The translations under genes and the position numbers were made by a program. A stretch of DNA of 64,000 nucleotides, taken from assembly GCF_010731115.1 (NCBI RefSeq), contig NZ_AP022616.1:1612001-1676000 (forward strand), given 5' to 3'. Shown piece by piece: positions 48,038 to 58,455 of the stretch. The notes beneath the pieces are model-generated. The model saw only the letters and a list, made by a program, of their open reading frames with translations, was not told where the DNA came from and made no database searches. The stretch's first letter is position 1. Every line of letters begins with the position of its first letter. The DNA is from Mycolicibacterium phocaicum (GTDB lineage Bacteria > Actinomycetota > Actinomycetes > Mycobacteriales > Mycobacteriaceae).

Positions 48038-48208
48038 CTTGCGCTCCTTTCCCACACCGGAAGTTGGTGCGGCGGATACCTCAACGCTACCGGCGATCTG
48101 CCGATCATGGGCGTCGAAGGAATTGCGACACACGGGTGTCCCTCTGACCGCGCTGTTAATCTCATACGCGAGTCGGGCTCATCGAAAGACATCTCACGAA
48201 GTTAAAAG

Positions 48209-49436
48209 TCAAGCCGCGGCCGGGAGTGGAGGTGGAAACGCTTGATGTTCGTTGTAGAGCTGGCCGGTGTGCAGGCAGTGATGCAGTTGGCCGAGGAATT
48301 TGTTGAACAGGTGCCGTTGGGCTTGGTGGTTCCAGTCTCCGGCGGCGCGGCGGGCGTCGAAGTGCCGGCGGGCTCCTGGGGAGGCGCGCAGCGAGGCCAG
48401 GGCCCAGATCGGCCCGACGGCGTTGAGTCGCCGGTTTTTGATATGACGGTGCAGGACAACGGTTTTCTTGCCGCTGGCTCGTGTGATCGGCGCCGATCCG
48501 GCGAACGCTTTCAAGCCGCGGGCGTCGGGGAACCGGGTGCGGTCATCACCGATCTCGGCGAGCACCCGGGCACCGGCGAGCATCCCCAGCCCGGGAAGCT
48601 GGTGATGATCGCGGCGTCCGGGTGCTGATCAAAATGGGCGGTCGCCGCCTCGGTCAACGCATCGGTCGCGGCGCAGGCCGCGTCGAACTGGCCCAGCAGC
48701 GCCGTCAGGTGAATGCCCATCGCGTTTTCCACCACCGCCGGCTGGTGCAGGTAGGTGTCGCCGAACACCTCACGCAGGCGTGTCACGTCGCGGTCGAGGT
48801 AGCGCTGGCGGCCAGCTTTGATCAGCAGCCGGCGCAACCTGGCGGGGGTCAGCTTGGCGGCCTGGGCCGGGGTCGGCGCCGCGGTCAGGATGGCCCGGGC
48901 ATCGGGGCGGGCCAGCCCGCCGTCGAGGCCGTCGAACGCCACCAGCGCGGCGGGGTAGAACTCTTTGAGCAGATCACGGATCTGGTTGCCGACCTGCCCG
49001 CGGGCCCACACCGCGTCCTGCTGGGCGCGGGCCAGGACCCGGATCGCTTGGGCCAGTTCGGTATCGGCCGGCAACGCGCGATGCGCGGTGGGATCGGTGC
49101 GGATGATGTTGGCCAGCAGCACCGCGTCGGTGGCATCGGATTTGGCGCCCGACACCGAGTACCGGGCCCGGTAGCGGGACGCGGCCAGCGGGTTGATCGG
49201 GTAGATCACCCGGCCGGTTTCCGCAGCGCTGCCACGAACAGGCCGCGGTCGGTTTCGATACCGACCGGGATCGGATGCTCAGCGCTGTCACCGACCTCGG
49301 CCAGCAGGGCCAGCAGGGCGGTGAACCCGGCGGCGTCGTTGTTGACCCGGCCGCGGGCCACCACCTTGCCCTCATCGTTGATCACCGCGACATCGTGATG
49401 GGCTGTGGCCCAATCGATTCCGCAATACAAACCCAA
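48209..49436 (-). pseudogene. IS110 transposase, two frameshifts as read
   Basis: DEDD/Ser transposase (N-terminal RuvC-like GIDWATAHHDVAVI, C-terminal Transposase_20 with the AGSAPITRASGKK serine region). Compared with copy 2, this copy has lost one base at 49221-49222 (GGG to GG in gene sense) and one at about 48594 (CCCC to CCC in gene sense), splitting it into three pieces. Start TTG 49436 follows GAAGGAG. Full length without the shifts would be about 409 aa. Confidence 0.85.
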
Positions 49437-49490
49437 TGTTGTCTCACTCCTTCGATCTGTGGTCGTGCCGTTACCGGTGGACTCACGCGG

Positions 49491-49776
49491 CGCCCTAATC
49501 GTGGGACTCAAAGGTCCGTCATCTCACTAGCCGTCCGTGACTCCAGCGCACCGCAGGACTTCGTTCTATCGAAGAGCTCAAAGCTCGGGAACCATCATCG
49601 GGAAGTCAACCCTGCGGCAGGCTCGGGCAACGGAATCCCACCACCACCGAACAGGGTCTGCTGCCAGGCGCGCCGTTCTTTCGTAAGTCGTCGAACGACG
49701 GGACACATCAGGCATCACCTGGCAACAGACCCCGTCAGGAACAAACCCCGGTCATCAGGACCGGTAATCCATCCCT
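49491..49776 (-). ncRNA. Putative IS110 bridge RNA region, copy 1
   Basis: Mirror of the structured left-end region of copy 2 (56790-57075). Same stem-loops, including the 15-bp stem GGGTCTGTTGCCAGG with CCTGGCAGCAGACCC. See copy 2 for details. Exact ends are not determined. Confidence 0.5.
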
Positions 49777-49796
49777 ACTAAACGATTAGGACCGCA

Positions 49797-56769: not shown

Positions 56770-56789
56770 GATCGTCCTAATCGTTTAGT

Positions 56790-57075
56790 AGGGATGGATT
56801 ACCGGTCCTGATGACCGGGGTTTGTTCCTGACGGGGTCTGTTGCCAGGTGATGCCTGATGTGTCCCGTCGTTCGACGACTTACGAAAGAACGGCGCGCCT
56901 GGCAGCAGACCCTGTTCGGTGGTGGTGGGATTCCGTTGCCCGAGCCTGCCGCAGGGTTGACTTCCCGATGATGGTTCCCGAGCTTTGAGCTCTTCGATAG
57001 AACGAAGTCCTGCGGTGCGCTGGAGTCACGGACGGCTAGTGAGATGACGGACCTTTGAGTCCCACGATTAGGGCG
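56790..57075 (+). ncRNA. Putative IS110 bridge RNA region, copy 2
   Basis: Part of the 356-bp non-coding left end. It folds well on paper: hairpin 56802-56818 (CCGGTC/GACCGG), a long stem 56834-56848 with 56898-56912 (GGGTCTGTTGCCAGG against CCTGGCAGCAGACCC, one G-U), hairpin 56980-56992 (GAGC/GCTC) and hairpin 56992-57007 (CTTCG/CGAAG). CGATTAGG at 57065-57072 is complementary to the element's own left end CCTAATCG. TCGATAGA at 56994 differs by one base from the complement of the right end TCTTTCGA. IS110 elements of the IS621 type encode their target-choosing bridge RNA upstream of the transposase. Ends, loop assignments and expression are inferred. Confidence 0.55.
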
Positions 57076-57129
57076 CCGCGTGAGTCCACCGGTAACGGCA
57101 CGACCACAGATCGAAGGAGTGAGACAACA

Positions 57130-58358
57130 TTGGGTTTGTATTGCGGAATCGATTGGGCCACAGCCCATCACGATGTCGCGGTGATCAACGATGAGGGCAA
57201 GGTGGTGGCCCGCGGCCGGGTCAACAACGACGCCGCCGGGTTCACCGCCCTGCTGGCCCTGCTGGCCGAGGTCGGTGACAGCGCTGAGCATCCGATCCCG
57301 GTCGGTATCGAAACCGACCGCGGCCTGTTCGTGGCAGCGCTGCGGGAAACCGGCCGGGTGATCTACCCGATCAACCCGCTGGCCGCGTCCCGCTACCGGG
57401 CCCGGTACTCGGTGTCGGGCGCCAAATCCGATGCCACCGACGCGGTGCTGCTGGCCAACATCATCCGCACCGATCCCACCGCGCATCGCGCGTTGCCGGC
57501 CGATACCGAACTGGCCCAAGCGATCCGGGTCCTGGCCCGCGCCCAGCAGGACGCGGTGTGGGCCCGCGGGCAGGTCGGCAACCAGATCCGTGATCTGCTC
57601 AAAGAGTTCTACCCCGCCGCGCTGGTGGCGTTCGACGGCCTCGACGGCGGGCTGGCCCGCCCCGATGCCCGGGCCATCCTGACCGCGGCGCCGACCCGGC
57701 CCAGGCCGCCAAGCTGACCCCCGCCAGGTTGCGCCGGCTGCTGATCAAAGCTGGCCGCCAGCGCTACCTCGACCGCGACGTGACACGCCTGCGTGAGGTG
57801 TTCGGCGACACCTACCTGCACCAGCCGGCGGTGGTGGAAAACGCGATGGGCATTCACCTGACGGCGCTGCTGGGCCAGTTCGACGCGGCCTGCGCCGCGA
57901 CCGATGCGTTGACCGAGGCGGCGACCGCCCATTTTGATCAGCACCCGGACGCCGCGATCATCACCAGCTTCCCCGGGCTGGGGATGCTCGCCGGTGCCCG
58001 GGTGCTCGCCGAGATCGGTGATGACCGCACCCGGTTCCCCGACGCCCGCGGCTTGAAAGCGTTCGCCGGATCGGCGCCGATCACACGAGCCAGCGGCAAG
58101 AAAACCGTTGTCCTGCACCGTCATATCAAAAACCGGCGACTCAACGCCGTCGGGCCGATCTGGGCCCTGGCCTCGCTGCGCGCCTCCCCAGGAGCCCGCC
58201 GGCACTTCGACGCCCGCCGCGCCGCCGGAGACTGGAACCACCAAGCCCAACGGCACCTGTTCAACAAATTCCTCGGCCAACTGCATCACTGCCTGCACAC
58301 CGGCCAGCTCTACAACGAACATCAAGCGTTTCCACCTCCACTCCCGGCCGCGGCTTGA
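57130..58358 (+). pseudogene. IS110 transposase, one frameshift as read
   Basis: Same transposase as copy 1. The first 196 codons are intact from TTG 57130 (ribosome site GAAGGAG, 10 bases upstream; LGLYCGIDWATAHHD). One base is missing at 57695-57697 (CCC where copy 1 has four), which shifts the frame before the C-terminal half (57729 onward). Restoring it gives about 409 aa with both the RuvC-like and serine domains. It may be a true mutation or a reading error in a repeat. Confidence 0.85.
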
Positions 58359-58455
58359 CTTTTAACTTCGTGAGATGTCTTTCGAATTGCGTTGTTTTGT
58401 GACATTTTTCGAGTCCTTGAGCCGGCGTCGCGGGACCGGCGGGCCGCCGTCCATC

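Follow-up and report, generated by a model that had tools for sequence, protein, structure and literature searches.

Several elements of the IS110 family are known to carry guide RNAs, and the closest described system is IS621. The texts on IS621 (PMC11208160 and PMC11208158) place the RNA in the left end of the element, where one target loop and one donor loop follow a 5' stem-loop. The 5' arms of the loops read the bottom strand and the 3' arms the top strand, the core is CT, handshake bases come after the core-pairing AG, and a promoter is rebuilt at the junction of the right end (RE) and left end (LE). The ISEc21 seekRNA (PMC11187229) similarly belongs to an IS110-type upstream leader, with a bottom-strand match located 5' of a top-strand match. 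Mycobacteria have an IS110-family element in IS900 (PMC8141618; family according to PMC7823733). TIGR-Tas systems (PMC12045711) have a related RNA-binding (Nop) fold and two-guide units, several in a row, but as described there they contain no transposase. The text of that paper describes the bridge RNA of IS110 elements as one unit with two stems.

We analyzed a stretch of 64,000 nucleotides from Mycolicibacterium phocaicum (here called the window). An IS110-group element in it has a noncoding left end that very probably encodes a bridge RNA, which reads the element's own ends and the complement of the Shine-Dalgarno (SD) sequence and leads to insertion at a CT core. An earlier note, made from the window alone, had suggested a candidate bridge RNA here, and the covariation of its loops with both donor ends and targets bears this out. 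The features listed above for IS621 recur in the sequence of this element, except that a third loop unit separates the target loop from the donor loop. The right target guide is also stronger here (positions 10 to 14), whereas the left guide gives a signal only at positions 4 and 5. The target is an SD sequence and not a REP sequence, which we take to be the target of IS621. As to ISEc21, its seekRNA is 74 nt long, and the passages describing it (PMC11187229) mention no third unit.

The element, its copies and its boundaries

The element and its parts are as follows (strand in parentheses):

56777..58380 (+): IS110-group element, copy 1, from left CT core to right CT core (six copies compared; empty paralogous site)
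56775..56776 (+): left target bases TC, outside the element (empty site; T6 in 43/44 and C7 in 44/44 sites)
56777..56778 (+): left core dinucleotide CT (empty site)
56779..56784 (+): right-donor sequence AATCGT of the left end, with AATCG read by the 3' arm of the donor loop (pairing and donor covariation)
57130..57717 (+): N-terminal DEDD part of the transposase, start TTG at 57130 (PF01548; frame interrupted in this copy, open in another genomic copy)
57729..58358 (+): C-terminal part of the transposase (PF02371)
58370..58378 (+): right end, or left-donor sequence, GTGAGATGT (copy comparison; donor covariation)
58379..58380 (+): right core CT (empty site)
58381..58384 (+): right target TTCG, in the flank (empty site; target covariation)
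48187..49789 (-): copy 2 of the element (target unit at 49648-49737, match to the third unit at 49538-49629; donor loop at 49488-49533 placed by offset from copy 1)

The leader (56774-57129) is present in six copies in the genome, with identity over 355 to 356 bases. Two of these copies lie in the window (56777-58380 on the plus strand and 48187-49789 on the minus strand), and both carry the leader, as the earlier note had seen. Within the element, the only differences among the six copies are indels of one base in the transposase gene; there are no substitutions. The indels are likely assembly errors; we left the interrupted transposase frame as sequenced and mended none of them. Of 198 genomes in the genus, 14 (the M. 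phocaicum genome among them) contain relatives of the leader. Relatives also occur in eight plasmid records (e.g., NZ_AP022607.1 from Mycobacterium branderi and NZ_CP122996.1), six of which cover at least 80% of the element (two mycobacterial records at 84 to 85% identity and four from Rhodococcus at 74%). The element may therefore spread by plasmid.

To place the boundaries, we relied on an insertion (L005) in repeated sequence, of which an uninterrupted copy (L101; 99% identical) exists elsewhere in the genome. The empty site reads GGGTC-CT-TTCG; in the insertion, the left junction is GGGTC-CT-AATCG and the right junction GAGATGT-CT-TTCG. By this comparison, the CT core is the only doubled sequence, and TTCG is target. 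Such an own-genome empty site was available for one of the six insertions. CCTTTCG also stands in the orthologous uninterrupted sites of L004 (four loci) and L006 (one locus); among six further loci for L005, two have it and four differ. A clean uninterrupted site was also sought for L001, L002, and L003, and none was found. The empty site rules out TC as the core and, together with sites that have other words (L042 and L050), a right end that reaches TCTTTCG. Both ends proposed in the earlier note consequently move. The left end had been set at 56774 (a T in one of the six copies), and the element starts at the CT core at 56777-56778. The proposed right end, TCTTTCGA, is mostly target sequence (TTCGA is target DNA), the true end being GTGAGATGT at 58370-58378 plus the CT at 58379-58380.

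The two transposase pieces match the IS110 family domains PF01548 (3.9e-36) and PF02371 (1.4e-14), and the DEDD residues D8, E61, D101, and D104 are invariant in 20 of 20 relatives. Each piece also matches NCBIfam NF033542, under the cut-off for the whole protein. A profile of the N-terminal part (20 relatives) found IS621 in the PDB at 5.3e-05, and ISCro4 as well; single transposase sequences searched against the PDB gave no match. The C-terminal piece weakly matches a TIGR-Tas endonuclease model (6.1e-06, below the model cut-off). The long noncoding left end (about 350 nt) and a short right end, 20 nt past the stop codon, are traits of the IS110 group, as opposed to IS1111. The frame is interrupted in copy 1 and open in L005, and the gene of the second window copy (48209-49375, minus strand) is likewise split into several frames. 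In L005, the copy with the open transposase frame, an open frame of 513 codons runs antisense across almost the whole element (L005:1512-3053, minus strand); the antisense open frame in the window spans 56785-57519 (minus strand). It recalls the hed frame that the text on IS900 reports (PMC8141618) and may be only a by-product of high GC content.

Donor and target loops of the probable leader RNA

The leader folds strongly (z = -4.06; 0 of 100 shuffles fold as well), in agreement with the earlier description of a structured, gene-less leader before an IS110 transposase. The four stem-loops noted then are present, including a long stem at 56833-56913. The covariance-model search proposed at that time, run here against the families of Rfam, which may include no bridge-RNA model, returned 0 matches; the earlier note had listed a lack of such matches among its refuting outcomes. 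The 5' part of the leader and its two assigned loops are as follows:

56789..56830 (+): 5' stem-loop (fold z = -3.34)
56829..56918 (+): target-binding loop unit, H1 (stem covariation; guide-target covariation)
56856..56866 (+): 5' arm of H1, TGATGTGTCCC, left target guide with G5 T6 C7 C8 at 56862-56865 (position 5 has the same letter in 33/44)
56880..56891 (+): 3' arm of H1, TTACGAAAGAAC, right target guide with CGAAAG at 56883-56888 pairing with CT-TTCG, then the handshake A (positions 10, 13, and 14)
57033..57078 (+): donor-binding loop, H3 (stem covariation; donor covariation)
57039..57046 (+): left donor guide GTGAGATG, equal to right end 58370-58377 (231/232 positions, 29 loci)
57065..57072 (+): right donor guide CGATTAG plus the handshake G (37/37 loci at two variable bases)

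We lined up relatives with a model (R1) of the third unit, H2, plus the donor loop, made from 26 sequences. Folded by itself, the donor hairpin does not exceed its shuffles in stability (z = 0.48). H2 and the donor loop together have 22 double-change cells in their stems against a shuffle mean of 5.0. A CTAAT lies 100 to 300 bases upstream of 37 of the 39 R1 matches (L051 and L062 had none in range), and several of the 37 are near-identical copies. The two bases after CTAAT vary in six combinations (CG, CA, TG, TC, CC, and GG) and complement the 3' arm of the donor loop in all 37 loci (0 of 20000 shuffles). In 29 loci, the 5' arm and the right end agree at 231 of 232 positions, and bases that vary change in both; none of 20000 shuffles did as well. 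This 8-nt count omits the base adjoining the core and the outermost base, and it leaves out one of 30 loci (L052) as doubtful. The guide base adjoining the core mismatches the right end in 27 of 29 loci. Two donor guides depart from their left ends, by two mismatches in L051 and by one in L054.

R1 also found H2 and the donor loop in relatives outside the model, and eight of the nine new loci lie beside a homologous transposase. These loci (L146 to L154) allowed a partial held-out check of the donor pairing. At the left end, the three loci with a single CTAAT (L146, L148, and L149) all match, L147 has two CTAATs, one of them matching, and five loci have none in range. The right-end check covered six of the nine loci, L146 to L151: L146 and L150 are exact, L147, L148, and L151 have one mismatch each, and L149 does not match. 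In L149, the bridge-RNA match (L149:1501-1666) scores 58 bits, and tblastn of 1.5 kb on either side found no homologous transposase; it is possibly an orphan RNA or a remnant. Another side observation concerns Streptomyces locus L067, in which two left-end-like words, CTAATGGGAAGCGA, stand 32 bases apart, 217 and 249 bases upstream of H2. They may mark a partial tandem insertion or a former end.

The earlier note had already paired CGATTAGG (57065) with the left end CCTAATCG, and this pairing is exact. Its donor loop, drawn at 56990-57075, overlaps the one found here, but the word that it used at 56994 belongs to another hairpin, H2. That word, TCGATAGA, is present; the sequence that it nearly pairs with is flank, and at position 10 none of 37 sites shows pairing between its unit and the target. 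The target loop, by contrast, had been placed correctly (56849-56897), with both guide arms inside it.

In H1, an apical hairpin of 13 bases separates the 5' arm from a 3' arm that ends in AG and two bases. Its stem (18 sequences, 26 named pairs) is 95.5% paired, with 31 double-change cells against 10.5 in shuffles. Over 48 insertion sites with 24 guide types, the arms follow the target (0 of 20000 shuffles). The 48 were taken from 61 sites, 13 having no recognized unit, and the first unit was used where there were two; we had seen the arm-target pattern by eye beforehand, so the test was not blind. Restricting the test to a single site for each guide gives 51 of 63 pairs (shuffle mean, 28.4; 0 of 20000 shuffles). 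On the right side (39 sites with a right flank), the 3' arm pairs at position 10 in 38 sites (shuffle mean, 30.8), at position 11 in 38, at position 12 in 39 (35.2), at position 13 in 35 (13.2), and at position 14 in 23 (10.8). Positions 10, 13, and 14 pooled give 96 of 117 pairs (shuffle mean, 54.9), and there was no signal past position 14 in these sites. On the left (44 sites; L050, L054, L056, and L061 omitted by hand), the 5' arm follows position 5 in 33 sites (shuffle mean, 14.8) and, weakly, position 4 in 20 (14.1; P = 0.018). T6 and C7 hardly vary. Positions 1 to 3 showed no significant pairing in the 44 sites, and left recognition is therefore short.

The relation also extends to distant relatives, of which 11 of 12 have in the leader 6 to 8 nt complementary to their own right target (cross-pairs, 8 of 116; 0 of 3001 shuffles). 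The match in L047 is 5 nt only, and L054 and L056 are counted both here and among the 48 sites. Several of these relatives have quite different targets (e.g., CTTCGTCG, CTTGTCA, and CTTTGAG). The earlier note would have been refuted had loops and insertion sites been unrelated across further copies; such a relation was found. One could suppose that the transposase protein itself reads TCCTTTC and the ends, the leader being a structured mRNA leader or a regulator. The core, T6-C7, and T11 hardly vary and could be read by a protein. However, where the target varies (positions 5, 10, 13, and 14), its bases track the RNA arms of that copy. The arm likewise fits the target in distant relatives whose targets differ, and donor bases follow the RNA too, so that a protein reading is extremely unlikely.

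Under the guided mechanism that we propose, the ends, core, target, covariation of loops and of stems, and junction are read from the DNA, and transcription, RNA-protein binding, a circle, and strand exchange would proceed by analogy with IS621. The left end would give a bridge RNA with a structured part of about 290 nt. Its 3'-most hairpin, the donor loop, would pair with the joined ends, the 5' arm copying right end GTGAGATG and the 3' arm pairing with CT-AATCG. The larger hairpin, the target loop, would pair with G-TC-CT-TTCG, its 5' arm equal to the left side and CGAAAG in its 3' arm pairing with CT-TTCG. The third, target-like unit lies between the two. The transposase with its RNA would then exchange strands at the shared CT core. 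Handshake bases follow the core-pairing AG in both loops (G in the donor loop and A in the target loop). Pairing of such bases after strand exchange is described in the text on IS621 (PMC11208158), and here their partners would be target C7 and donor T7; since these bases hardly vary, this is consistency and not covariation.

The data set thus offers natural guide-target pairs from Mycobacterium to Streptomyces. Both loops are rewritten in step with the DNA, making the reading rules of bridge RNAs testable outside IS621.

A third guide-like unit

Compared with IS621, the leader contains at least one more guide-like unit:

56933..57031 (+): third, target-loop-like unit, H2, with no assigned role (stem covariation; model R1; arm likeness to H1)

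We describe H2 as a new guide-like unit that is kept across the clade and matches no insertion examined. Across genera, compensating changes preserve its stems (four of the five pairs with double changes in H2 and the donor loop lie in H2). Its fold alone gives a z of only -1.74. The 3' arm of H2 is the best or tied best match to the 3' arm of H1 among 277 positions in 22 of 23 elements. A second model, R2, scores 27.9 bits on H2 in the window and at most 32.5 elsewhere, hardly more than on reverse-strand H1 (26.7 in the window and at most 28.0 elsewhere); the homology of the units therefore rests on the arm match and not on the model.

H2 was our initial working assignment for the target loop, with 56829-56918 as a mere 5' stem-loop. 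That would give the IS621 layout (5' stem, target loop, and donor loop), and the H2 arms TTCCC and CGAYAG partly pair with the target. In the covariation test of this assignment, mainly one left-target position stood out. The position-10 control, with pairing in 0 of 37 sites, spoke against the assignment; at positions 13 and 14, the H2 letter is invariant, whereas H1 follows the target. We give this arrangement practically no chance of being right, and H1 is the target loop in what follows.

Some relatives have more units still. In Streptomyces loci L054 and L056, a tandem pair of target-type units precedes H2; the first of the pair matches the target, and the second, with arm CTGTCAAG, does not. 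The same tandem pair occurs in L059 (L059:93-276), about 2 kb upstream of H2 and the donor loop (L059:2299-2461). The L059 leader is probably interrupted by a second insertion, and no target was available for comparison with its tandem pair. Arthrobacter locus L062 has two weak matches (27.5 and 23.0 bits) standing apart, the second of which matches the target; the first may be outside the element, as the left end was not found.

Thus, the layout of one target loop and one donor loop after a 5' stem-loop does not hold here, due to H2 and to the tandem unit in L054 and L056. H2 could be a spare or former target loop that retains its fold and has lost its function. This is quite plausible, though we would not put it at even chances: none of 37 insertions match it at position 10, and a search for its predicted site in its own genome found nothing closer than two mismatches. 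Against a loss of function, the fold is kept by compensating changes across genera, and H2 is part of the R1 model, which finds relatives at 44 to 58% transposase identity. More tentatively, and with real doubt, the bridge RNA of this actinobacterial IS110 clade might be a small array (one or two target-type units, the conserved third unit with guide arms of its own, and the donor loop) whose extra units are working guides for other DNA. If so, these units would guide to a second target class or to the element's own junctions at excision, one RNA would offer the transposase several destinations, and the clade would be intermediate between two-unit bridge RNAs and TIGR arrays. The extra units raise the question of whether one bridge RNA can serve more than one target, as TIGR arrays do. 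Titles and abstract beginnings in the open-licence literature yielded nothing on bridge RNAs of mycobacteria, on SD targeting, or on RNAs with more than one target loop. The texts consulted gave no account of extra units in a bridge RNA; figures, including the ISAar29 structure of PMC11208160, were outside their scope, and a third unit may already have been published.

Insertion at probable Shine-Dalgarno sequences and the end junction

The target TCCTTTC is the complement of GAAAGGA and hence, with what we take to be the 3' end of the 16S rRNA, an SD complement. We looked for start codons at 41 of 49 sites (left flank of at least 200 nt). An ATG or GTG located 3 to 11 bases away opens a frame of at least 60 codons in 28 of the 41 sites, compared to 313 of 2320 shifted positions (13.5%). 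The other 13 sites have no start codon in range. The element would thus enter between the SD sequence and the start codon, with the transposase and the host gene pointing apart.

Location at SD sequences could also reflect survival only, with wide insertion and persistence before start codons, and the 13 sites that are not before a start codon fit this. Yet the target word is the same at sites that lack a start codon (e.g., L005 and L030), and it varies with the RNA guide. We therefore regard survival alone as very unlikely and favor guided insertion.

The flanks in the window, joined at the core, read GAAAGGA-CGATC-ATG and with the element in place ATTAGGA-CGATC-ATG. The host gene would retain AGGA at its spacing because TC-CT stays to the left of the element, as the mechanism predicts, and we infer that it would still be translated from there. 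The guide offers a sequence-level mechanism for the insertion of mycobacterial IS110 elements at translation starts, which presumably are the sites of IS900 as well. The published IS900 target motif, CATGNNNNNNTCTCCTT (PMC8141618), can be read as an SD sequence and start codon backwards, a likeness drawn from the motif alone. It is a different word with fixed spacing, and the passages on it mention no RNA guide. Contrary to our SD reading, the text of PMC7823733 names AGCTGG as the SD motif in genomes of M. avium.

Finally, we joined the right end to the left end in 30 elements. In 29 of them, the junction contains a promoter-like TTGAC(N) and TCTAAT separated by 17 or 18 bases, the -10 box spanning the core; the exception is L052, with its doubtful right end. 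Excision of the element would thereby rebuild a predicted promoter across the junction (here TTGACT-17-TCTAAT), from which the bridge RNA and the transposase may be expressed.
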